From Lysobacteraceae bacterium (GTDB lineage Bacteria > Pseudomonadota > Gammaproteobacteria > Nitrococcales > AK92), in NCBI GenBank assembly GCA_012523465.1, contig JAAYIK010000028.1, positions 1 through 64,000 of the forward strand: a stretch of 64,000 bases of DNA, written 5' to 3'. A model generated the notes under the pieces. That model worked only from the letters and a program-made list of their open reading frames with translations. It did no database searches and was not told where the DNA came from. Below are positions 30,617-56,607 of this stretch, piece by piece; within the stretch, counting starts at the first letter, position 1, and each line of letters starts with the position of its first letter. A program made the translations under genes and the position numbers.

Positions 30617-32059
30617 CTGTACCAGCCCAAGACGACATTACGGCTGATTCTCTACGGCTTCGGCTTCGTCACACTGCCGCTGGTGATCGCGCTTGCGCTG
30701 GCGGTGCTCTACATTGATCGCCTGGTCGACCAAAGCCAGAACGCCGTCTACCAGGCGGTCGAGGCCACTCGCGGCAGCCGCCTGTTGATCAGCCAGCTCA
30801 ACGCCATGGAGCGCTATGCGCGACAGTACTTGGTGCTGCGCGATGCCGCCCTGCTGGAGGCCTACCAGACCTCACGCGAGGACTTCCAGGCAACCTCGCG
30901 GCAATTGCTGGCGCTGACCCGCGGCAGCGAGCAGGAGCGGCAGGTAGCGACCCTCATCGCGACCGAGCAGAAACTGTTCGAGCGCTTCAGCAAAAGCGAC
31001 CTGCAAGCGGCAGACGCCGACCAGCTGCTTGCCGACGGCTTCGGCGATCTGGCCGAGCAGGCGCGCGGCATCCTCAACGTCAGCAGTCGCCTCATCGACC
31101 ACCAGGTGGAAATCCTGAGCCGGACCGCCAGTGAAGCCCAGCGCGTGCTATTCGGCCTGGCCTTTGCGCTGGTGCCCTTGACGCTGCTCTCGGTGGCGGG
31201 TTTCACCACCCTGATCGCCCAACCCATCCGCCAGGTGGTCCACGCCATCCGCCGCCTCGGCAGCGGCAACTTCGACGATCCCATCAGCGTCTCCGGCCCC
31301 AAGGACCTGCAGCATCTGGGCCACCAGCTCGACTGGCTGCGGCAGCGGCTGAGCGACCTGGAGCAGCAAAAGGCGAAATTCCTGCAGCACATCTCGCACG
31401 AACTCAAAACGCCGCTAACCGCCATCCGCGAGAGCGTCGATCTGATCGCCGACGGCGTGGTCGGCCCGCTCAACGAGCAGCAGCAAGAAATCGCCGGCAT
31501 CCTCGAGTCCAACGCCCGTCAGCTGCAAGGCCTGATCGAGGATTTGCTCGACTTCGGCACCGCTCAGAGCCACACCCCGCCGCTTTATCTGACCCGGGTG
31601 CCGCTGAAGCCGTTGGTCAACGGCATCGTCAAGAACCACAAGCCCACCCTGCTGAGCAAGCAAATCTCGCTGGAGAGCCGGCTGGCCGACGTTAGCCTGC
31701 TGGGCGACCGGGACAAGCTGGCGACGGTGGTCGACAATCTGCTGTCGAATGCCATCAAGTTCACCCCCGTCGGCGGCCGGATAGAGATAGACTTAAAGAA
31801 GGAAAACGGCCAGGCGATCCTCGAAGTAACCGACTCCGGCCCCGGGATAGAGCGCGACGAATGGGAGCGGGTGTTCGAAGCCTTCTACCAGGGACGGCGC
31901 CGGCCGACGGGTTACGTCAAAGGCTCCGGTCTCGGGCTGTCCATCGCGCGCGAGTACGTGCTCGCCCATCAGGGCACCATCGCCGTGGTCGCGCATGATG
32001 GCCCTGGCGCCCGCCTGCGCGTCAGCCTACCGCTGGAGCTGGGACGGGAAGAACCATGA
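30617..32059 (+). CDS. glrK: GlrK/QseE-like sensor histidine kinase
   Basis: A membrane histidine kinase of about 480 residues. It has an N-terminal TM helix, a helical periplasmic sensor domain, a second TM near residue 175, HAMP, a phospho-accepting histidine in HISHELKTPLTA, and ATPase boxes DNLLSNAIKF, DSGPGI and GSGLGLS. No ATG or TTG lies in frame after the upstream stop at 30566-30568. The first GTG (30683) would cut the first TM helix. CTG at 30617, 8 nt after GAAGG, gives a sensible N-terminus (YQPKTTLRLILYG), so a non-AUG start is proposed. It is followed by the qseG-like and glrR genes, as in E. coli. Confidence 0.88.
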   Translation: MYQPKTTLRLILYGFGFVTLPLVIALALAVLYIDRLVDQSQNAVYQAVEATRGSRLLISQLNAMERYARQYLVLRDAALLEAYQTSREDFQATSRQLLALTRGSEQERQVATLIATEQKLFERFSKSDLQAADADQLLADGFGDLAEQARGILNVSSRLIDHQVEILSRTASEAQRVLFGLAFALVPLTLLSVAGFTTLIAQPIRQVVHAIRRLGSGNFDDPISVSGPKDLQHLGHQLDWLRQRLSDLEQQKAKFLQHISHELKTPLTAIRESVDLIADGVVGPLNEQQQEIAGILESNARQLQGLIEDLLDFGTAQSHTPPLYLTRVPLKPLVNGIVKNHKPTLLSKQISLESRLADVSLLGDRDKLATVVDNLLSNAIKFTPVGGRIEIDLKKENGQAILEVTDSGPGIERDEWERVFEAFYQGRRRPTGYVKGSGLGLSIAREYVLAHQGTIAVVAHDGPGARLRVSLPLELGREEP

Positions 32060-32583
32060 GACAGTTTTTACCGCGTCTGCTCGGGTGCGCCTCCATTCTG
32101 CTGCTGGCCGCCTGTGCGGCCCCCTCGGGCTGGCCGCCGGCGCAACCGGCCCAGCCGCTTCCGGCGCAGGACCGGGCCCTGCTTGAGCTGCTGGGCTATT
32201 ACCAGGCCCTGGGTAACCGCTCCCTGGATGCGCTGGAGTCGGAGCGCCGTTTCCAGCAGGCGGCGCTGATCGCCGACCGCTGCAGCCAGTCGCGCATGCG
32301 GCTGGGATTGGTGCTGCTGAGGCTGCAGGAAGCCGGCGACTTGAACGAGCATGACGAGGAAGTCATGTATCCTTGTCTCCATGACAGCGGCGACGGCAGC
32401 GGCGTCCATCTGTTGGCCCAGCTCGTCCACCAGCAGTTGCAGGCACACGCCCGCAGCCGGATGCTGCAGCGGGATACGTCACGGACTCTGGAAGCCCTGA
32501 TGAAGGACAATCAGGAACTTCGGCGGCAGGTCGATGGCCTCAAAGCCATAGAACGCAGTCTGCAGAACCGCCATCGTGAATAA
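32056..32583 (+). CDS. QseG-like lipoprotein between glrK and glrR
   Basis: A 175-residue lipoprotein: MRQFLPRLLGCASILLLAAC gives the signal and lipobox. The rest is helical, with cysteines in IADRCSQS and MYPCLHD and a C-terminal coiled coil (TLEALMKDNQELRRQVDGL). It overlaps glrK by ATGA. In E. coli the gene at this place, qseG (yfhG), encodes an outer membrane lipoprotein that modulates the kinase. Low sequence conservation makes position the main evidence. Confidence 0.8.
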   Translation: MRQFLPRLLGCASILLLAACAAPSGWPPAQPAQPLPAQDRALLELLGYYQALGNRSLDALESERRFQQAALIADRCSQSRMRLGLVLLRLQEAGDLNEHDEEVMYPCLHDSGDGSGVHLLAQLVHQQLQAHARSRMLQRDTSRTLEALMKDNQELRRQVDGLKAIERSLQNRHRE

Positions 32584-32593
32584 GGACACAGCC

Positions 32594-33952
32594 GTGGAAC
32601 AAACCGCCCGAATCCTCGTCGTCGACGACGATCCGCATCTGCTGCGCCTGCTCTCGATCCGCCTGCAAACCGCCGGCTTCGAGCCGGTGACCGCAGAGAG
32701 CGCCGAAGCGGCGCTGGCCAAGCTGCCGGCCGTGCGGCCGTCGCTGATCATTACTGACTTGCGCATGGACGGCATGAACGGCATGGCGCTGTTCGAGACC
32801 GTGCGCAGCCGCTATCCGCTGCTGCCGGTCATCATCCTCACCGCGCACGGTTCCATCCCGGAAGCGGTGGAGGCAACTAAGCGCGGCGTGTTCGGCTTCC
32901 TGACCAAGCCGTTCGACAGCCAGATCCTGCTGGAGCAGGTACGCAGCGCGCTGGCCGTCTCCGGCGGCGTGGCGATCGACGAAGCGGAACAGAACGACGA
33001 CTGGCGCGCCCATATCCTGACCCGCAGCCCGCTGATGGAGGACGTCCTCAGCCGCGCCCGCATGGTGGCCGCCAGCGAAGCCAGCGTGTTCATCCACGGC
33101 GAATCCGGCACCGGCAAAGAGCTGCTAGCCCAGGCCATCCACAAAGCCAGCCCACGCGCCGACCAGCCTTTCGTGGCGGTCAACTGCGGCGCCATCCCGG
33201 AGGCGTTGCTGGAGTCGGAGCTGTTCGGCCACAAGAAGGGCGCCTTCACCGGCGCCACCAAGGACCATGACGGCCTGTTCCTGTCGGCCGATGGCGGCAC
33301 CCTGTTCCTGGACGAAATCGGCGACATGCCACTGTCGCTGCAAGTCAAGCTGCTGCGCGTGCTGCAGGAACGCATGGTGCGCCCGGTCGGTTCGACGCGG
33401 GCCATCCCGGTGGACGTGCGCATCATCTCCGCCACCCATCGCGACCTGACCGAAGAGATGATGGCCGGGCGCTTCCGGGAAGACCTCTATTACCGTCTCA
33501 ACGTGGTCACGCTGGAGCTGCCGCCTCTGAGCGCGCGGCGGGAGGACATCCCGCTGCTGGCCAATCACTTCCTGTGTCAAATGGCGGAGAAATACGACAA
33601 GCCGCTCAGCGGCTTCGCCAGCGAGGCCATGGAGCGTCTGGTCAGCGCCCCCTGGCCCGGCAACGTGCGCCAGCTCTACAACCTGGTTGAGCAGGTCGCC
33701 ATCCTGTCCACCACGCCGGTGGTACCGGAAGCGCTTGTGCAAAAGGCACTGCGCGACGACAGCACCGATCTACCGCCGTTCGCCGACGCCCGCCGCGACT
33801 TCGAGCGCGACTACCTGGTGAAGCTGCTGCAGATCACCGAGGGCAACGTCAGCAAGGCCGCCCGGCTGGCCAAGCGCAACCGTACCGAGTTCTACAAGCT
33901 GCTCAACCGCCACGACATCAACCCGGCGGTATTCAAACAGATGCAAAGCTAG
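32594..33952 (+). CDS. glrR: GlrR/QseF-like sigma-54-dependent response regulator
   Basis: A 452-residue NtrC-type activator. The receiver domain has ILVVDDD and the phospho-aspartate in IITDLRMDGM. The AAA+ domain has Walker A GESGTGKE and the sigma-54 contact loop GAFTGA. A Fis-type helix-turn-helix is at the C-terminus (GNVSKAARLAKRNRTEFYK). The GTG at 32594 follows AAGGA by 7 nt; a GTG at 32576 is less likely. In E. coli GlrR activates sigma-54 promoters of glmY and rpoE through TGTC-N10-GACA sites. A sigma-54 promoter lies at 40573-40589 in this window. Confidence 0.95.
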   Translation: MEQTARILVVDDDPHLLRLLSIRLQTAGFEPVTAESAEAALAKLPAVRPSLIITDLRMDGMNGMALFETVRSRYPLLPVIILTAHGSIPEAVEATKRGVFGFLTKPFDSQILLEQVRSALAVSGGVAIDEAEQNDDWRAHILTRSPLMEDVLSRARMVAASEASVFIHGESGTGKELLAQAIHKASPRADQPFVAVNCGAIPEALLESELFGHKKGAFTGATKDHDGLFLSADGGTLFLDEIGDMPLSLQVKLLRVLQERMVRPVGSTRAIPVDVRIISATHRDLTEEMMAGRFREDLYYRLNVVTLELPPLSARREDIPLLANHFLCQMAEKYDKPLSGFASEAMERLVSAPWPGNVRQLYNLVEQVAILSTTPVVPEALVQKALRDDSTDLPPFADARRDFERDYLVKLLQITEGNVSKAARLAKRNRTEFYKLLNRHDINPAVFKQMQS

Positions 33953-33955
33953 GGG

Positions 33956-35611
33956 CTAGTCCGCACGCGCCTCCAGGCGCAGCACCGCATCCAGATACTG
34001 CGCACCGACCGGGCGGTGACTGATCAGGATCAGGGTGTGCCCATCCAGCGTCTCGCGCAAGCCGGCCATCACGGCCTCGGCGGTCGGCCCATCCAGCCCT
34101 TCGAACGGCTCATCCAGAATGGTGATCGGGGCGCGCGCCAGCACCGCGCGCGCCAGCACCAAGCGGCGGGCCTGGCCGCCGGACAGCCCGGCCCCGTACT
34201 CCCCGATCAAGGTCTCCAGTCCCTGCGGCAGGGCCCGCACCACAGCATCCAGCTGCACTGCGGCCAGCGCTTCCCAGAACGCGGCCTCGTCGGCCTCGGG
34301 CCGGGCCAGGCGCAGGTTGTCAGCCACACTGGCATTGAACAGGTAAGGCTGCTGCTCGACATAGTGCAGCGTGCGGCGCAGTGTGGGCTCATCGTAGGCT
34401 TCAATGGGCCGGCCGTCGAGCAGGATCGCGCCCTGCTGCGGCTGCAGCAGCCGCGCCAGCAAGCGCGCAAGCGTAGTCTTGCCGCTGCCGGACTCGCCCT
34501 GTAACCCCAGCCATCGGCCATAGGGCAGGCGGAAATCGACTCCCGCCAGACCGTGCGTGCGTCCCGGATAGCGGAAGCTCAAACCCCGCACCTCCAGCTC
34601 CGGCGTCCGCGAGGGCTGAGGCCCCTGCGGCGGGAACGCCGCCACCGGCGGCTCTGCGCCCAGCTCGTTCACCCGCTGCAGCGCGGCCCGTCCCTGGGCG
34701 GCCGCCTGGAAGGCTGCCGGCAGCGGCGCCAGGGCCTCCTGCAGGCCGAGCACAGCCAGCACCGCCATGGTCAGGAAGGGCCCGGCCTTGACCTGGCTAA
34801 CACCGCCAGTGAGCATGCTCCAGACAGCCAGCCCCAGCAGCCCGGCCAGCAGCGCCTGGCCCACGGCCGTCGCCAGGCTCTGTCGGAACTGGGCGTCCAG
34901 CACCCGCTGGTCGGCGGCGTCCAGCAGCTGCCGCCGCCGCTCCCAGACGCCGTGCAAATGTAGGCTGATCATCCCGGCCAGCGACTCGATGAGCAGATCG
35001 CGCCGCTCACCGGCATGGCGCCGCTGCTGCGCTCCCAGATGGCTGGCCAGCAGCGCCAGCAGCAGCGGCAGGGCCACCGCGCCCAGCAACAGCCAGGGCA
35101 AGGCACGCAGCATTAGCGTCGCCGACTGCCAATAAAGCAGTCCCAGCACCGTCAGCAGCACGACCAGTGCCCACAGCACCGGCGCCAGCAGCCGCAGCGG
35201 CAGCTCGTCCAGGGTGTCGACGTCGGCCACCACCCGCTCCAGCAGCTCGCCGCTGCTGAGGCGGGGACTGGGCAGCCGCGGCAACAGGCGCCGGTAGACC
35301 TGGCTGCGGAGGCTGCTCAGCAACCGCAGCACGGCGTCGTGCGAGGCCAGCCGCTCGCCATAGCGCCCGGCAGTGCGGAGGATGGCGCTCAGCCGGATCA
35401 GGGCGCCGGGGCGGAAGATGTCGAACTGGGCGGCCGCCGCGGCGCTCAGGCCGGCCAGCGCCGCGGCGCTGATGAACCAGCCGGACAGCGCCAGCAGCCC
35501 CAGCGCCGCCAGCAGCGTCACCAGCCCCAGCGCCAGGCCCAGACCGAAGCGCAGTCGCCAGCGCCACAACTGCCCCCAGAAACGGATCAGCGGCCCGCCA
35601 CGCTCGCTCAT
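33956..35611 (-). CDS. cydC: CydDC exporter subunit CydC
   Basis: A 551-residue ABC half-transporter with six N-terminal TM helices and an ATPase domain (Walker A GESGSGKTTLA, signature LSGGQARRL, Walker B ITILDEPFEG). With CydD it is needed for cytochrome bd assembly; it has been described as a cysteine/glutathione exporter and, in newer work, as a haem transporter. The ATG at 35611 overlaps the cydD stop as ATGA. It is convergent with glrR, with 3 nt between the genes. Confidence 0.95.
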   Translation of the reverse strand: MSERGGPLIRFWGQLWRWRLRFGLGLALGLVTLLAALGLLALSGWFISAAALAGLSAAAAAQFDIFRPGALIRLSAILRTAGRYGERLASHDAVLRLLSSLRSQVYRRLLPRLPSPRLSSGELLERVVADVDTLDELPLRLLAPVLWALVVLLTVLGLLYWQSATLMLRALPWLLLGAVALPLLLALLASHLGAQQRRHAGERRDLLIESLAGMISLHLHGVWERRRQLLDAADQRVLDAQFRQSLATAVGQALLAGLLGLAVWSMLTGGVSQVKAGPFLTMAVLAVLGLQEALAPLPAAFQAAAQGRAALQRVNELGAEPPVAAFPPQGPQPSRTPELEVRGLSFRYPGRTHGLAGVDFRLPYGRWLGLQGESGSGKTTLARLLARLLQPQQGAILLDGRPIEAYDEPTLRRTLHYVEQQPYLFNASVADNLRLARPEADEAAFWEALAAVQLDAVVRALPQGLETLIGEYGAGLSGGQARRLVLARAVLARAPITILDEPFEGLDGPTAEAVMAGLRETLDGHTLILISHRPVGAQYLDAVLRLEARAD

Positions 35612-37380
35612 GCGCCATCCTCCAGCTCGCGGAACAGCCGGCACAGCCTGCTATCGGCTCGCGCCAGCAGCGACTGCGGCGCGCCCTGCTCCACCAGCCG
35701 CCCCTGCTCCAGCACCAGTACACGGTCGACCCACTCCAGGTGGGCGCGGTCATGGGTCGCCAGCAAGACGCTACGGCCCTGGCTGGCCCGGGCCAGCTCG
35801 GCGCGCAAGGCGGCGCTGGTGTCGGCGTCGAGCTGCGCGGTCGGCTCATCCAGCAGCCACAGCGGCGCATCGCGCAGCAGCGCCCGCGCCAGCGCCAGCC
35901 GCTGCAGCTGGCCGCCGGACAGCCCCCGGCCGCCCTCGCCCAGCACCGTGTCGAGGCCATCCGGCAGGCTCGCCAGCAGTCCGCCCAACCCGGCCTGCCG
36001 CAGCACCGTCGCCAGCGCCGTGTCGTCGTACCCCTCCGCGCCCAGGGTGAGATTCTCACGCAGGCTGCCACGGAACCATTCCGGTCGCTGCCCCATCCAA
36101 GCCAGCACCCGCCACCAGCTCGCGCGTTCCAGCGTCGTCAAGTTAAGGCCGTTGGCCAGAATCCTGCCCTCGTTGGGCGCGGCGAAGCCGAGCACCAGGT
36201 TGAGTAGGCTGGACTTGCCGGCGCCGCTCTCACCCACCAGCGCGACTCGCTCGCCCGGGTTCAGGACGAAGGAAACTGCCTCGATGCCGATCCGCCCGTC
36301 CGGATAGCGCAGGGTGACGGCGTCGAATTCCAGCCGGATGCCGCCGACCGGCTGCGGCCAGCGGACGCTGGCCACTGCCGGCCGCCACTGGCCGGGCACG
36401 GCCTCGACCCGCATGATGGCCTGGGCCGCACCGATGGCCTGGGCGCGCGAATGGTACTCGGCGCCGAGCTGGCGCAGCGGCATGTAGAACTCCGGCGCCA
36501 GCATGAGGATAAACAGCGCGTCCTCCAGCCACATGTCCTCGCCGTAATGCCCCCAATGGAACCAGTCGAGCAGCGACAGCCCCAGGTATAGCGCTACCAT
36601 GGCGATGGCAATCGAGGAGAACAGCTCCAGCACCGCCGAAGAGAGGAAGGCCAGGCGTAGCACCCCCATGGTGCGCTTGCGGTACTCCTCGGAAGCATGG
36701 GTTATCCAGCGCTCGCCCGTCTCGGCCCGCCCCAGCAACCGCAGGGTCGGCGCTCCGCGCAGCAGGTCGAGGAAACGACCGCCGCGCACGCCAAGGGCGA
36801 CCGCCTGGCGCTCGCTGGCGGCGGCAGCGCCGCGCCCCACCAGCACCATGAACAGTGGGATCAGCGGCGCGGTAACCAGGAAGATCACAGCGGCCAGCCA
36901 GCTGCGCGGGGCGACGGCAGCGGCGATCAGCAGCGGCACGATGGCAGCCAGCCGGGTCTGCGGCAGATAACGCGCATAGTAGGCATCCAGCGCATCCACC
37001 TGTTCCAGCACCGTGGTGGACAGCTGGCCGTCGTTGCCGATGCCGGCCCGCAGCGGCCCCAGCTGCGCCAGCCGCTCCAGCAGCCGGCCGCGGACACGCC
37101 GCCGCACGGCCAGCCCAGCCTTGGCGCCGGCCCAGTCCTTGAGCGCCAGGAAGACGCTGCGGATCAGCACCAGGACCGGCACGACATACCAGAGCGTGGC
37201 CACCGGCGGCATGCGGCCGCCGACCCAGTCGGCGATGCAGCGGGCCAGCAGCGCGAACAGGACGATAGTGGCGACCGCCGCCAGCGCTCCGGCCCCGGTG
37301 CTCAACCGGGACCAGAGGCTGGCGGCGGTCGCCTCCTGCTTAAGCCAGGCTTCAGGGCTTGGGTGCGGGGCTGCCGTCAT
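35608..37380 (-). CDS. cydD: CydDC exporter subunit CydD
   Basis: A 590-residue ABC half-transporter with N-terminal TM domain and ATPase (Walker A GESGAGKSSLL, signature LSGGQLQRLALA, Walker B LWLLDEPTAQLD). It pairs with CydC. It starts 11 nt after cydX and is coupled to cydC. All five cyd genes read in one direction with short spacers, so this is a single operon. Confidence 0.95.
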   Translation of the reverse strand: MTAAPHPSPEAWLKQEATAASLWSRLSTGAGALAAVATIVLFALLARCIADWVGGRMPPVATLWYVVPVLVLIRSVFLALKDWAGAKAGLAVRRRVRGRLLERLAQLGPLRAGIGNDGQLSTTVLEQVDALDAYYARYLPQTRLAAIVPLLIAAAVAPRSWLAAVIFLVTAPLIPLFMVLVGRGAAAASERQAVALGVRGGRFLDLLRGAPTLRLLGRAETGERWITHASEEYRKRTMGVLRLAFLSSAVLELFSSIAIAMVALYLGLSLLDWFHWGHYGEDMWLEDALFILMLAPEFYMPLRQLGAEYHSRAQAIGAAQAIMRVEAVPGQWRPAVASVRWPQPVGGIRLEFDAVTLRYPDGRIGIEAVSFVLNPGERVALVGESGAGKSSLLNLVLGFAAPNEGRILANGLNLTTLERASWWRVLAWMGQRPEWFRGSLRENLTLGAEGYDDTALATVLRQAGLGGLLASLPDGLDTVLGEGGRGLSGGQLQRLALARALLRDAPLWLLDEPTAQLDADTSAALRAELARASQGRSVLLATHDRAHLEWVDRVLVLEQGRLVEQGAPQSLLARADSRLCRLFRELEDGA

Positions 37381-37391
37381 CGCGGCAGGCC

Positions 37392-37505
37392 CTACTCAGA
37401 CCTGCCCTCTTCTCCAGGGTAACCCTGAAATTCCAGCCACATGGCATTGAGGATGCCGGCCGCGCAAGCCAGCAACACACCGAGTATCCAAGCGAAGTAC
37501 CACAT
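37392..37505 (-). CDS. cydX: Cytochrome bd oxidase small subunit CydX
   Basis: A 37-residue one-helix protein starting MWYFAWILGVLLACAAGILN and then AMWLE, almost identical in pattern to E. coli CydX. It stabilises haem binding in cytochrome bd. It lies between cydB (14 nt away) and cydD (11 nt), with AGGAAA-type purines upstream. At 114 nt including the stop codon it is easily missed by gene finders. Confidence 0.93.
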   Translation of the reverse strand: MWYFAWILGVLLACAAGILNAMWLEFQGYPGEEGRSE

Positions 37506-37518
37506 CGTCTGTTTCCTC

Positions 37519-38673
37519 TCAGTACATCGACGCCGAGTGCTCGCGCACGTCCTCAGCCGTGACCGGACCACGCATGACGCGGTACACCCAGCTGGTGTAG
37601 GCGATGACGATCGGCAGGAAGATGATCACCATCCAGAACATCCAGCGCAGCGTCAAGAGACTGGAGGTGGAATCCCACATCGTCAGGCTGTGGCCAGGCT
37701 CCAGGCTGGAGGGCATAAGGAACGGGAACATAGCCACGCCCGCTGTGAGCACCACGCAGCCCAGCGCTACCGAGCTGGCGATGAAGGCGAGCCCCGGCCG
37801 GGTGGCGGCCAGCTTCCAGGCCACGAACGCACCGACGAAGACCAGCGCCGGAATCACCCACAGCAGCGGATTGGCGCCGTAGTTTGCCAGCCAGGCACCG
37901 GCTTCGCGCACCACCTGCTTGGTGGTCGGGTTGGACGCTGCTTCGGTGCCGGCGAAGGCGACGATCCGGTAGCCGTCGATGCCAAGGGTCAGCCAAATGC
38001 CGGCCAGGGCGAAGGTGACGCACAGCGCCAGCGCCGAATAGCCGACCCAGCGCCGGGCCCGCTCGCGGATCTCGCCTTCGGTCTTGAGCTGCAGGAACAC
38101 CGACCCCTGCAGCAACATCATCGACAAGCTGACCAGGCCCGCCAGCAAACCGTACGGATTGAGCAGGCCGAAGAAGCTGCCGTAATAGGTCACCCGCAGC
38201 TGCTCATCGAAGGAGAACGGCACGCCCTGCAACAAGTTGCCGAAGGCCACGCCGAACACGATCGAGGGCACGATGGCGCCCACGAACAGTGCCCAGTCCC
38301 AGACGTTGCGCCAGCGCGCATTCGGCAGCTTGCTGCGGTAGGAAAAGCCCACCGGCCGCAGAATCAGCGCAAACAGCGTCAGGATCAAGGCGATGAAGAA
38401 GCCGGAGAAGGCCGCCGAGTAGACCAGGGGGTAGGCGGCGAAGATCGCGCCACCCCCGAGGATCAGCCAGACCTGGTTTCCCTCCCAGGTCGGACCGACG
38501 GTGTTGATCAGCACCCGCCGCTCGTCGTCGGTACGAGCCACGATCGGCAGCAACGTGGCCACGCCGAGGTCGAATCCCTCCATCACGGCGAAGCCGATCA
38601 GCAGCACGCCGAGAAACAGCCACCAGATGACGCGTAGCGTCTCGTAGCTCATCAAGAACTGTATGAATTCCAT
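37519..38673 (-). CDS. cydB: Cytochrome bd ubiquinol oxidase subunit II
   Basis: A 384-residue inner membrane protein with eight to nine helices. The N-terminal LMSYETLRVIWWLFLGVLLIG and GFDLGVATLLPIVAR blocks are typical, as is TVGPTWEGNQVWLI. It forms the oxidase with CydA, giving high-affinity oxygen reduction to water. It starts 11 nt after cydA. Confidence 0.97.
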   Translation of the reverse strand: MEFIQFLMSYETLRVIWWLFLGVLLIGFAVMEGFDLGVATLLPIVARTDDERRVLINTVGPTWEGNQVWLILGGGAIFAAYPLVYSAAFSGFFIALILTLFALILRPVGFSYRSKLPNARWRNVWDWALFVGAIVPSIVFGVAFGNLLQGVPFSFDEQLRVTYYGSFFGLLNPYGLLAGLVSLSMMLLQGSVFLQLKTEGEIRERARRWVGYSALALCVTFALAGIWLTLGIDGYRIVAFAGTEAASNPTTKQVVREAGAWLANYGANPLLWVIPALVFVGAFVAWKLAATRPGLAFIASSVALGCVVLTAGVAMFPFLMPSSLEPGHSLTMWDSTSSLLTLRWMFWMVIIFLPIVIAYTSWVYRVMRGPVTAEDVREHSASMY

Positions 38674-38684
38674 GGTTGCTCTCC

Positions 38685-40289
38685 TTAAGCCTGTTCGGAC
38701 GAGACCGGAGCGGCCGGTGCCGGCATGGGGCTGACGCCGGACGAAGGCTCACGTTCCTGCGTCTCGGTGGAGGCGTCCGCCGGGCCAAGCCGGATAAACT
38801 TGAGCATCAGGTACATCTCCACCACCAGCAGCACCGTGTACAGCAGGACGAAGCCGGTCAGGCTGAAGGCCAGATCGCTTACGGTCAGCGAGGACACCGA
38901 CAGCCAGGTGGGCAGCACATCGCCAACGGTCCATGGCTGTCGGCCGACCTCGGCCACGAACCAGCCAGCCTCGGAGGCAATCCATGGCAGCGGGATGGAG
39001 TACAGCGCGAAGCGGAGCAGCGCCTTGCTCTTGCCGACGGTGCGACGCGCCGAGGCCGCGAACGCCCAAATGAACAGGACCAGCATGATGAAGCCGGCGG
39101 CCACCATCACCCGGAAGGTCCAGAACAGGGGACCGACCGGCGGGATGCTGTCACGCACCGCGGCCTGGATCTGCTCCTCGGTGGCGTCCACCACCTTGTC
39201 GGTATAGCGCTTGAGCAGCAGGCCATAGCCGAGGTCCTCCCGACGCGCCATGAACTCTTCCCGGGCGGCCTCGTCGTAAGGATTGGCGCGCAGCCTGGTG
39301 AGCGCGTCGTAGGCAAGCATGCCGCTGCGGATGCGCTGCTCGCTCTCAGCCATCAAATCCTTAATGCCGATGACGGGCTCATCCACCGAGCGGGTGGCGA
39401 GTAGACCCATCACCCAGGGAATATTCAAAGCGCCCCGCGTCTCCAGCTTCTCGGAGTCGATCCAGCCAGCCACCGTGAACGAGGCCGGCGGCTCCTGAGT
39501 CTCCCACATGGCCTCGATGGCGGCGAGCTTCACCTTCTGCACGGTGCCCAGGCTGTAGCCGTGCTCGTCACCCAGGGTGATCACCGACAGCACGCCGGCC
39601 AAGCCGAAGGCCGCAGCGATGGCGAACGAACGCCGGGCGAAGGCGACGTGGCGGCCTCGCAGCAGGTACCAGGCGCTCACGCCGAGCACGAAGACGGCGG
39701 CGGTGACGTAGCCGGCCGAGACCGTGTGGACGAACTTCACCTGCGCCACCGGGTTGAAGAAGACGTCAGCGAAGCTGGTCATCTCCATGCGCAGGGTCTC
39801 GGGATTGAACGCGGCGCCGGCGGGATACTGCATCCAGCCGTTGGCGATTAGGATCCAGAGAGCCGAGAAGTTCGAGCCTAGCGCCACCAGCCAGGTGACG
39901 ATCAGGTGCTGTACCTTGCTCAACCGCTCCCAGCCGAAGAAGAACAGGCCGACGAAGGTCGCCTCCAGGAAGAAGGCCATCAGCCCCTCGATGGCGAGCG
40001 GCGTGCCGAAGATGTCACCAACGTACTGGGAGTAGTAGGACCAGTTCGTGCCGAACTGGAACTCCATGGTGATGCCGGTGGAGACACCGAGGACGAAGTT
40101 GATGCCGAACAGCTTGCCCCAGAACTTCACCATATCCTTGTAGATCTGCTTGCCGGTCATGACGTAGACCGACTCCATGATGGCAAGCAGGAAGGACAGG
40201 CCCAGGGTCAAGGGCACGAATATGAAGTGATACATGGCAGTCAATGCGAACTGCCAACGCGATAGTTCAACGACTGTATCCGAGATCAT
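38685..40289 (-). CDS. cydA: Cytochrome bd ubiquinol oxidase subunit I
   Basis: A 534-residue haem protein. The haem b595 histidine is in MYHFIFVPLT, and the quinol (Q) loop begins GDEHGYSLGTVQKVKLAAIEA. A long insert follows (to about residue 390), so this is the long-Q-loop type seen in E. coli rather than the short cyanide-insensitive type. AAAGGTGAGG precedes the ATG. The promoter region carries an FNR/Anr-like box, so induction at low oxygen is likely. Confidence 0.97.
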   Translation of the reverse strand: MISDTVVELSRWQFALTAMYHFIFVPLTLGLSFLLAIMESVYVMTGKQIYKDMVKFWGKLFGINFVLGVSTGITMEFQFGTNWSYYSQYVGDIFGTPLAIEGLMAFFLEATFVGLFFFGWERLSKVQHLIVTWLVALGSNFSALWILIANGWMQYPAGAAFNPETLRMEMTSFADVFFNPVAQVKFVHTVSAGYVTAAVFVLGVSAWYLLRGRHVAFARRSFAIAAAFGLAGVLSVITLGDEHGYSLGTVQKVKLAAIEAMWETQEPPASFTVAGWIDSEKLETRGALNIPWVMGLLATRSVDEPVIGIKDLMAESEQRIRSGMLAYDALTRLRANPYDEAAREEFMARREDLGYGLLLKRYTDKVVDATEEQIQAAVRDSIPPVGPLFWTFRVMVAAGFIMLVLFIWAFAASARRTVGKSKALLRFALYSIPLPWIASEAGWFVAEVGRQPWTVGDVLPTWLSVSSLTVSDLAFSLTGFVLLYTVLLVVEMYLMLKFIRLGPADASTETQEREPSSGVSPMPAPAAPVSSEQA

Positions 40290-40406: not shown

Positions 40407-40589
40407 TGTCGCCAAACGACGACCGTGCGCGGGCTTGCCCCGCAAGGCTTGTGCCGTTGGGGCCCGATTTCCGCCGCCTGACGGTGACAGCCAGATCCGC
40501 TGGCACCGGTGCCTGGCCTGGCCATCAATGAAAAAACTCAGAAAATCGAACACTTAGGAAATACGACCGAAATTGGCACGGCAGTTGCC
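40407..40589 (+). promoter_or_regulatory. Sigma-54 promoter with upstream activator and IHF-like sites
   Basis: TTGGCACG-GCAG-TTGCC (40573-40589) matches the -24/-12 consensus, with GG and GC exactly 10 nt apart. Upstream is an AT-rich stretch with AATCGAACACTTA (40544-40556), one mismatch from the IHF consensus. Further up are the perfect palindrome GGCACCGGTGCC (40502-40513) and TGTC-N10-GACC (40407-40424), one base off the GlrR half-site pair TGTC-N10-GACA. This is the layout of an enhancer-dependent promoter. The start should be near 40600. The rest of the gap from 40361 holds nothing else I can name. Confidence 0.65.
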
Positions 40590-40712
40590 TAGTTGATCGT
40601 GCTTCGGTGGGATACGCACGGGATGTGCGGCGGGGTTGCACCAGGGACAGGGCACCTGGAGGAACAGGGACGTTCTGCCTACCGAACCCGAGCACAGGGC
40701 AGAGATGTGGCG

Positions 40713-40931
40713 ATGAAGGAGATGCTGTTCATTACCGTTGCCGTGCTGGTGCCGCCGACACTAACGTTCCTCGGCGTGGTCGGCGAGCGCCCGCAGTCGC
40801 GCTTCGAGCAAGGCTGGCATCTCCCGGCCGGCGCGAACCAGCCGCCGCCGGCCGCTGGCGAACGGAACGGCGCCAGCCCGCCCCGGCCGTGCTGGCCCGA
40901 AACCGCCCAACGGCAGCCAACGTCCTCCTAG
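40713..40931 (+). CDS. Small predicted membrane or exported protein, unrecognised
   Basis: A possible 72-residue protein starting MKEMLFITVAVLVPPTLTFL, one hydrophobic helix or signal, then a proline- and alanine-rich tail ending at 40931. The start has only a weak purine run upstream (GGGCAGAGATG), and the tail could be a GC-bias artefact. Support comes from a strong sigma-54 promoter 125 nt upstream. In E. coli the gene between cydX and ybgC is ybgE, another small membrane protein, but I see no clear similarity. The transcript could instead be non-coding. Confidence 0.35.
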   Translation: MKEMLFITVAVLVPPTLTFLGVVGERPQSRFEQGWHLPAGANQPPPAAGERNGASPPRPCWPETAQRQPTSS

Positions 40932-41079
40932 CGGGCCGTGACGTCGCGGCGGCCGGCGACGCTTGTTCCCTCTTGTGCCCGCGTATACAGTTAGGGCGTT
41001 TGACCAATCCAACCCGTTGACCAAGCATCTCGGATGACCGGCAGCGGCTCCAATCCTGCGGGGTCCGCAAGGAATACAC

Positions 41080-41493
41080 GTGAACGCATTCGTCTGGCCG
41101 ATCCGGGTCTACTACGAAGACACCGACAGCGGCGGCATCGTCTACCATGCCAACTACCTCAAGTACATGGAGCGTGCCCGTACCGAGTGGCTGCGCGCGC
41201 GCGGCTTCGACCAAGGCCGGCTGAAGCAGGAACTCGGCGTCATCTTCGTGGTCCGTTCCCTGCAAATCGAATACGAAAAACCGGCGCAAATCGACGACAA
41301 ATTACAAGTTGTTACCCAGGTCGCGGCACAACGGCGGGCAAGTCTGCTATTCCATCAGCTCATCCAGCGCGAGGACCCCGAGCCCGTGGTGCTGATCCGC
41401 AGCGAAGTCAAGGTAGCTTGCCTCGACAGCCGCACGCTCAAGCCTCGCGCCATACCGGACCAGATTAGAATGGAGTTAACGGATGTCGGTTGA
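41080..41493 (+). CDS. ybgC: YbgC-family acyl-CoA thioesterase
   Basis: A 137-residue hot-dog fold thioesterase with the catalytic aspartate motif YYEDTDSGGIVYHANYL. YbgC hydrolyses acyl-CoA and is associated with the Tol-Pal system and phospholipid synthesis. It starts with GTG at 41080, 6 nt after AAGGA, and overlaps tolQ by 11 nt. A weak promoter (TATACA at 40984-40989) lies about 90 nt upstream. Confidence 0.95.
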   Translation: MNAFVWPIRVYYEDTDSGGIVYHANYLKYMERARTEWLRARGFDQGRLKQELGVIFVVRSLQIEYEKPAQIDDKLQVVTQVAAQRRASLLFHQLIQREDPEPVVLIRSEVKVACLDSRTLKPRAIPDQIRMELTDVG

Positions 41494-51695: not shown

Positions 51696-53693
51696 TCAAG
51701 CGAGCAGCTCGCGGACCGTCGCCGCGACCCGCTCGGCCGTGAAGCCGAAGTATTTGAAGAGTTCGCCGGCGGGGGCGGATTCGCCAAAGCGGTCGATCCC
51801 GATGATCCGGCCCCGGAAGCCAACGTACTTGTACCAGATGTCCGGCGAACCGGCTTCGATGACGACCCGCGCCTCCACTTGCGGCGGCAGCACCGCATCC
51901 CGGTAGGCCTGGTCCTGTGCCTCGAAGGTATCGGTCGACGGCATGGACACGACCCGCACGCGACACCCCTGCCCTGCCAGCTCCTCGGCGGCCGCCACTG
52001 CTAGCGCCACCTCCGACCCGGTGGCGATGAGGATGGCTTCCGGCTCGCCGTCGCAATCCCGCAGCACATAGCCGCCGCGCCGGATCGCCTGGAGCTGCTC
52101 CTCAGTCCGAGTCTGGTGGGGCAGGTTCTGCCGCGACAGCAACAGCGCCGTCGGCCCATCCTTGCGCTCGATCGCCGCCTGCCAGGCGACCAGCGTTTCC
52201 ACTGCGTCGCAAGGCCGCCAGACACTCAAGTTGGGGATCAGACGCAGACTCGCAACGTGCTCGATGGGCTGGTGAGTCGGCCCGTCCTCCCCCAGGCCGA
52301 TTGAGTCGTGAGTATAAACGAAGATGCTCCGCTGCTTCATCAGCGCGGCCATGCGCACGGCATTGCGGGCATAGTCGGAGAACACCAGGAAGGTGCCGCC
52401 GTAGGGAATGAAGCCGCCGTGCAGGGCAAGCCCGTTCATGATGGCGGACATGCCAAATTCGCGCACGCCGTAGTGGATGTAGTTGCCGCCGGCATCTTCG
52501 CCGCTGACGGCCTTGCTGCCCTTCCACCAGGTGTTGTTGGAGCCGGTGAGGTCGGCCGAGCCGCCAATCAGCTCTGGCAGGTGCGGCCCAAGGACGTTGA
52601 GCGCGCTCTCGGAAGCCTTGCGGGTCGCGACGTCGGCCGCGGCTCGGTCGGCCTCGCGGACGGCCTGTTGCACCAGCTCCTCCCAAGCAGCCGGCAGCTC
52701 CTTGTTCAAGCGCCGCTCGAATTCCGCTGCCAGCTCAGGATAGGCGGCCTTGTAGGCTTGGTAACGACTCTGCCACTCCTGCTCCAGCTCCCGGCCACGG
52801 GCACGGGCGTCGTAGGCCTGATAGATCTCGGCCGGGATTTCGAACGGCGGGTAGGGCCAGTTCAGAAACTCGCGGGCCGCGGCAATTTCCTCAGCGCCCA
52901 GAGGCGCGCCATGCACACCGTGGGTGCCGGCGGCATTGGGCGCGCCGTAACCGATGACGGTCTTGCAGCAGATAAGGCTGGGCTTGTCGGTGACGGCGCG
53001 CGCCTCCTCGATGGCCCGGCGCACCGCCTCGGGATCGTGCCCGTCGACGTTGCGAACCACGTGCCAGCCGTAGGCTTCGAAGCGGGCCGGGGTATCGTCA
53101 GTGAACCAGCCCTCGACCTTGCCGTCGATGGAAATGCCGTTGTCGTCGTAGATGCAGATCAGCTTGCCCAGCTTGAAGGTACCGGCCAGCGAGCAGGCCT
53201 CATGGGAGATCCCTTCCATCAGGCAGCCGTCGCCCAGGAAGACATAGGTGTAATGGTCGACGATCTCGTGGCCGGGGCGGTTGAACTGGGCCGCCAGCAC
53301 CTTTTCCGCTAGCGCCATGCCCACCGCGTTAGCCAGCCCCTGGCCCAGCGGCCCGGTGGTGGTCTCCACCCCGGGCGTGTAACCGTACTCGGGATGCCCC
53401 GGCGTCTTGGAATGCAGTTGCCGGAATGCCTTGATATCGTCGATGGTCAGATCATAGCCGCTCAGATGCAGCAGGGCGTAAATCAGCATGGAACCGTGCC
53501 CGTTGGAGAGCACGAATCGGTCGCGGTTGAACCAGGCGGGATTGGCCGGATTGTGGCGCAGAAAGTCGTTCCACAGCACTTCAGCGATGTCTGCCATCCC
53601 CATCGGCGCGCCGGGATGTCCGGAATTGGCTTGTTGCACGGCGTCCATGCTGAGCGCGCGGATGGCGTTGGCGAGTTCGCGTCGGGTGGGCAT
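51696..53693 (-). CDS. tkt: Transketolase
   Basis: A 665-residue thiamine diphosphate enzyme of the pentose phosphate and Calvin cycles. It has [20 protein letters not shown], the diphosphate-binding [13 protein letters not shown] and [11 protein letters not shown], and the C-terminal catalytic region [19 protein letters not shown]. First gene of the tkt-gap-pgk-pyk run and divergent from metK. Confidence 0.97.

Positions 53694-54020: not shown

Positions 54021-56607
<2,587 letters not shown>

Follow-up and report, generated by a model that had tools for sequence, protein, structure and literature searches.

The window, a 64-kb stretch of DNA from genome G000, carries upstream of ybgC a small transcription unit that, as judged from sequence features, is very probably controlled by the response regulator GlrR together with sigma-54. 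We hold this view because of the synteny with glrR in relatives, the paired GlrR sites, the recovery of the known sites at glmY, and the conservation of the promoter, leader and open reading frame (ORF) in a second genome of the genus. The same evidence strongly supports the proposal of the initial annotation that an undescribed small transcript is produced here under GlrR control. As the best single account, we regard the locus as probably being a GlrR-activated sigma-54 unit that specifies a CsrA-type leader followed by a small membrane peptide. The same-genus comparison involves one genome, G001 (an Ectothiorhodospiraceae MAG), in which the gene order cydA-unit-ybgC is kept.

The -24/-12 element of the sigma-54 promoter, TTGGCACG-GCAG-TTGCC, is located at positions 40573-40589 on the plus strand and is the single exact occurrence of TGGCACGN4TTGC in the 64 kb. 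It also has the joint best sigma-54 score in the window, as given by a matrix with approximate frequencies; the site tied with it, at 53051 on the minus strand, appears to match by chance within coding sequence. Conservation of the element in relatives had been proposed as a check, and G001 does retain a copy (L002 687-703). The two genomes align at the sigma-54 element, the leader and the ORF, while the adjoining DNA has diverged. The transcription start would lie near 40600. Upstream of the promoter there is an IHF-like site, AATCGAACACTTA (40544-40556, plus strand), with one mismatch to the IHF consensus, and a perfect 12-bp palindrome, GGCACCGGTGCC (40502-40513, no strand), which is located between the second GlrR site and the promoter and has no aligned counterpart in G001. 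The initial annotation had listed the promoter element, the IHF-like site, the palindrome, one GlrR-like site and a 72-amino-acid ORF, all of which are present in the sequence; its inventory missed a second GlrR site (40472-40489) and the structured leader.

The rules for GlrR sites were taken from previous studies (PMC6075780, PMC8745638). When one mismatch was allowed, the pattern TGTCN10GACA was found 19 times in the window against 17.7 occurrences expected, which is chance level, and the window by itself therefore could not decide the GlrR question. A site matrix was derived from 30 sites of relatives, none from the window's genus, with the caveat that these sites were selected by the TGTCN10GACA pattern itself. 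With this matrix, UAS1 (TGTCGCC-AAAC-GACGACC; 40407-40424, plus strand), the GlrR-like site originally noted, ranks 1 of 63,983 even though it is at chance level when taken alone, and UAS2 (CGCCGCC-TGAC-GGTGACA; 40472-40489, plus strand), 65 bp from UAS1, ranks 10 of 63,983. UAS2 is a weak site, and each UAS has one good half, giving an imperfect match. The two sites nevertheless form the window's only pair with a spacing of 64-69 bp under the matrix from relatives, and a pair of equal quality and spacing occurred anywhere in 64 kb in just 3 of 200 Markov-shuffled windows. UAS pairs spaced by 65-69 bp recur in relatives across the order and the class, and UAS1 is perfect in G001. As a positive control, the top three matches of the matrix in 6 kb are the three known UAS of E. 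coli glmY, where GlrR sites and the use of IHF have been described (PMC6075780). The distance from the UAS to the -24 element is 106 bp at glmY, versus 101 bp between the UAS pair and the -24/-12 element in the window.

Both glrR and rpoN are present in G000. The glrR gene (32576..33952, plus strand) is located 6.6 kb from the sigma-54 unit and is preceded by a sensor histidine kinase gene in the position of glrK (30683..32059, plus strand; Pfam HisKA, HATPase_c and HAMP). Its product carries the Pfam response regulator and Sigma54_activat domains, a GAFTGA motif, and a recognition helix nearly identical to that of E. coli GlrR; the best NCBIfam model by far is GlrR (NF011695) at 645.5 bits, which is below the curated cut-off of 763. 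A cydDC-cydBA block (33956..40289, minus strand) separates glrR from the unit in the window's genus only, cydC likewise following glrR in G001. In relatives within the order, ybgC-tol usually comes next after glrR. GlrR-like sites are found in the intervening gap, in many cases together with a strong sigma-54 site about 100 bp past the UAS pair. As these relatives have glrR directly followed by the unit or by ybgC, the unit appears to have ancestrally adjoined glrR, in a position that we refer to as the slot.

At 18 of 53 glrR loci, sampled across the order and the class, a sigma-54 site scoring 14 bits or more lies within 600 nt past glrR on the coding strand; the other strand gave none (0/53), and the control stretches gave 1/53 each (the next 600 nt, and the inside of glrR). 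Similarly, TGTCN10GACA is present in the 450-nt gap after glrR at 24 of 55 loci versus 2/55 and 0/55 in control stretches. In the f2 genomes (L063-L066, L068-L071, L074), the UAS pair is kept between glrR and ybgC with no recognisable sigma-54 site; at L066, the only one measured, a sigma-70-like TACATT element is found about 67 bp past UAS2.

A transcript starting at about 40600 would begin with a 5' leader (40600..40712, plus strand) for which G000 and G001 share a multibranch fold, consisting of the same closing stem (40603..40611 paired with 40678-40686) and three hairpins with GGA in or at the loop. Hairpin 1 (40615..40629) has a GGGAU loop in the predicted fold, and hairpin 2 (40632..40658) has an AGGGACA loop within a region that is nearly invariant in G001. 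Hairpin 3 (40661..40676; GGAAC-AGGGAC-GUUCU), on the plus strand as are the others, has a canonical ANGGAN hexaloop, the sole one with a stem of at least 5 bp on this strand of the window, and its loop is closed by AC/GU, which is the arrangement of high-affinity CsrA/RsmE sites (PMC7652899). In the outer helix, two base pairs are altered on both sides in G001, and the total folding energy of the leader, which was compared in two genomes, is ordinary (z about 0).

The GGA-loop score beats those of 396-397 of 400 shuffled sequences for the G000 leader, 390-396 of 400 for the G001 leader, and all 400 for both the 3'UTR of the G002 unit and an sRNA in G005. The GGA-loop hairpins of the leader exceed local controls too, and the strict ANGGAN rule yielded 4 hits in 9.5 kb of units as compared to 5 in 318 kb of controls. 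We tested whether CsrA hairpins are a general property of units in the slot and rejected this, since only these four genomes stand out; GGA-hairpin clusters occur in the slot in two genera besides the window's own. Most other units there lack such hairpins, including a unit located further upstream in G001, and the hairpins therefore represent a trait of families f1 and f3 rather than of the whole slot. G000 has a csrA gene, as do 50 of 54 genomes from the order. No copies of the leader were found elsewhere in the genome, and a leader model (R1) searched across the order gave strong matches in the two genus members only, with others at about 24 bits or less. A comparison with Rfam gave nothing credible, with no match to GlmY/GlmZ or to any Csr/Rsm family. 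We consider the chances that CsrA functionally binds the leader to be evenly balanced.

The ORF that follows (40713..40931, plus strand) would encode a peptide of 72 amino acids with an N-terminal hydrophobic segment, which we think is probably translated. As for codon conservation, another proposed check, the outcome gave moderate support for coding: the ORF is kept in G001 with 45% identity, but dN/dS between the two genomes is only moderately low, being 0.37 over 24 codons and about 0.7 over 30. The peptide matched no family in Pfam or NCBIfam. A small-ORF profile searched across the order recovered the two genus members only, the remainder looking like noise, and an ORF scan of the named genomes returned G001 alone. 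G003 has a possible weak homolog (VKDLLFILATLLVPAGVT) just upstream of ybgC.

The following mechanism appears the most likely. Phosphorylated GlrR would bind both UAS (40407 and 40472), and DNA bending at the IHF-like site would bring it to the sigma-54 RNA polymerase at 40573-40589. The RNA initiated from about 40600 would comprise the folded leader, with its three GGA-loop hairpins probably bound by CsrA, and then the peptide ORF. CsrA on the leader might repress synthesis of the peptide, or an abundant RNA might titrate CsrA, thereby coupling the Csr regulon to the sensing of envelope stress. The unit itself would derive from the GlrR output slot found directly past glrR in many gammaproteobacteria.

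Among the other explanations, the one that gives the leader no role in CsrA binding deserves the most attention, although we consider it unlikely. The product of the GlrR-sigma-54 promoter would then be the small membrane peptide, with the leader hairpins serving stability or another regulator. This fits the conservation of the ORF in G001 and possibly in G003, and many relatives have a gene for a small secreted EF-hand protein in the slot, showing that protein cargo is common. However, G000 and G001 hardly differ in the part of the leader around hairpins 2 and 3, which is better conserved than the ORF in its C-terminal half, and the loop sequences agree with published rules for CsrA sites. 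A decidedly less probable explanation is that the promoter mainly provides GlrR-dependent stress expression of ybgC-tol-pal via read-through. No intrinsic terminator was found between the ORF and ybgC (41080..41493, plus strand; TIGR02799 above cut-off), the first gene of the tol-pal cluster, either in the window or in G001, and read-through from the unit into tol-pal is possible for that reason. In relatives, however, terminators part the unit from ybgC, and ybgC has a probable sigma-70-like promoter of its own (TTGTTC-N17-TACAGT; 40963..40991, plus strand), which was missed by a strict promoter scan but is conserved in G001, with TTGnnn-N17-TACATT-like elements before ybgC in relatives.

Two further explanations were considered. 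That some other activator drives the sigma-54 promoter, the GlrR sites being coincidental, would agree with the chance-level frequency of TGTCN10GACA in the window and with the distance to glrR; we consider it very improbable, as no pair other than the sites ranked 1 and 10 is correctly spaced, the relatives show synteny with glrR, and UAS1 is perfect in G001. It is barely credible that the unit is a chance assembly or a decayed remnant that is not transcribed. Its patchy distribution between genera and a -12 element ending in TTGCC rather than TTGCW would be in line with this, but the sigma-54 element, leader and ORF were kept in G001 while their flanks diverged.

The GlrR-activated unit proposed here resembles the glmY promoter of Enterobacteriaceae, which is activated by GlrR (QseF) with sigma-54 and IHF, in that both have two to three GlrR sites, an IHF-like site and a -24/-12 element at near-equal distances, and both are, ancestrally in the case of the window, placed beside the glrKR genes. 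They differ in that the window's unit was ancestrally located past glrR rather than before glrK, and its RNA, with no Rfam similarity to GlmY or GlmZ, has an ORF and GGA hairpins. Like CsrB, CsrC and RsmX/Y/Z, the leader presents GGA in hairpin loops (three hairpins, one with a canonical ANGGAN hexaloop), but its motifs are few, its promoter depends on sigma-54 and GlrR rather than GacA/UvrY in our account, and, unlike stand-alone Csr/Rsm sponges, it has an ORF attached and no terminator that we could find. The CsrA-regulated glgC leader is also comparable, in that a hairpin site lies upstream and a GGA may be present close to the start codon, although the putative target here is a small peptide of no known family. 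CrcZ and CrcY of Pseudomonas are RNA decoys driven by CbrB and sigma-54; the proposed logic of a sigma-54-driven decoy is shared, while the protein target and the motif differ. In E. coli, a sigma-54 promoter of rpoE under QseF control ties GlrR output to the cell envelope (PMC6075780), with a cargo and a locus that differ from those of the window.

In a limited literature search, we found no description of a comparable GlrR unit from outside the enterics, and the GlrR (QseF) outputs known so far in that literature, glmY and rpoE, are enteric. Our results suggest that the architecture of GlrR sites plus a sigma-54 promoter is far wider, occurring beside glrR and tol-pal and carrying an RNA or protein cargo that depends on the lineage, and the site model may be used to predict GlrR regulons outside enterics. 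The Csr system is usually fed by GacA/UvrY, and the CsrA link, if true, would add a sigma-54 route into it. More tentatively still, the post-glrR position might be an old, class-wide GlrR/sigma-54 slot whose cargo has been swapped between lineages (an EF-hand protein, an sRNA with a C-rich loop, or a CsrA-binding RNA), the window's family producing the CsrA-binding RNA, so that GlrKR, as an envelope-stress system, would control the Csr regulon directly by way of a sigma-54-dependent RNA.

The slot carries different cargo in different lineages. In G002 and G003, the sigma-54 site is followed by a gene for a small secreted EF-hand protein, as confirmed by Pfam, and such proteins were recognised by reading of the sequence in G178, G310, G132, G199, G074 and G256. 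EF-hand loci directly past glrR are spread over several families (L053, L054, L086, L089, L091, L092, L095, L096), and GlrKR might conceivably be linked to calcium. Nine f4 genomes (loci L055, L056, L058-L062, L072 and L075) have a common hairpin sRNA with terminators, a perfectly paired 12-bp stem, and a C-rich loop, GCCCCGUCACCCCCUCA, that is invariant save for one extra C in G043. This sRNA is located past GlrR-like sites, in several cases with a sigma-54 site too, and it matched no Rfam family where tested. When a model of it was searched against a sample of the class, with few candidates scored per genome, the matches were essentially restricted to f4. The hairpin RNA may represent a new family of sRNAs that have a seed loop. 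By reading, the slot of G159 contains an apparent opgG, and that of G180 a small ORF and then an acyltransferase-like gene.

In the slot of G005, a GGA-hairpin RNA (L006 1980-2327, minus strand) resembles a Csr sponge and, as judged by inspection, has a terminator. G001 has a second sigma-54 site (L002 424-440) upstream of the shared unit, with a predicted transcript of roughly 210 nt extending to about 658 and an intrinsic terminator; this transcript, which is missing from the window, may encode an Arg-rich peptide (MEQRTPIRVFARSRRR...). Elsewhere in the window, an SAH riboswitch is present at 55194-55283 (Rfam RF01057, 63.9 bits).
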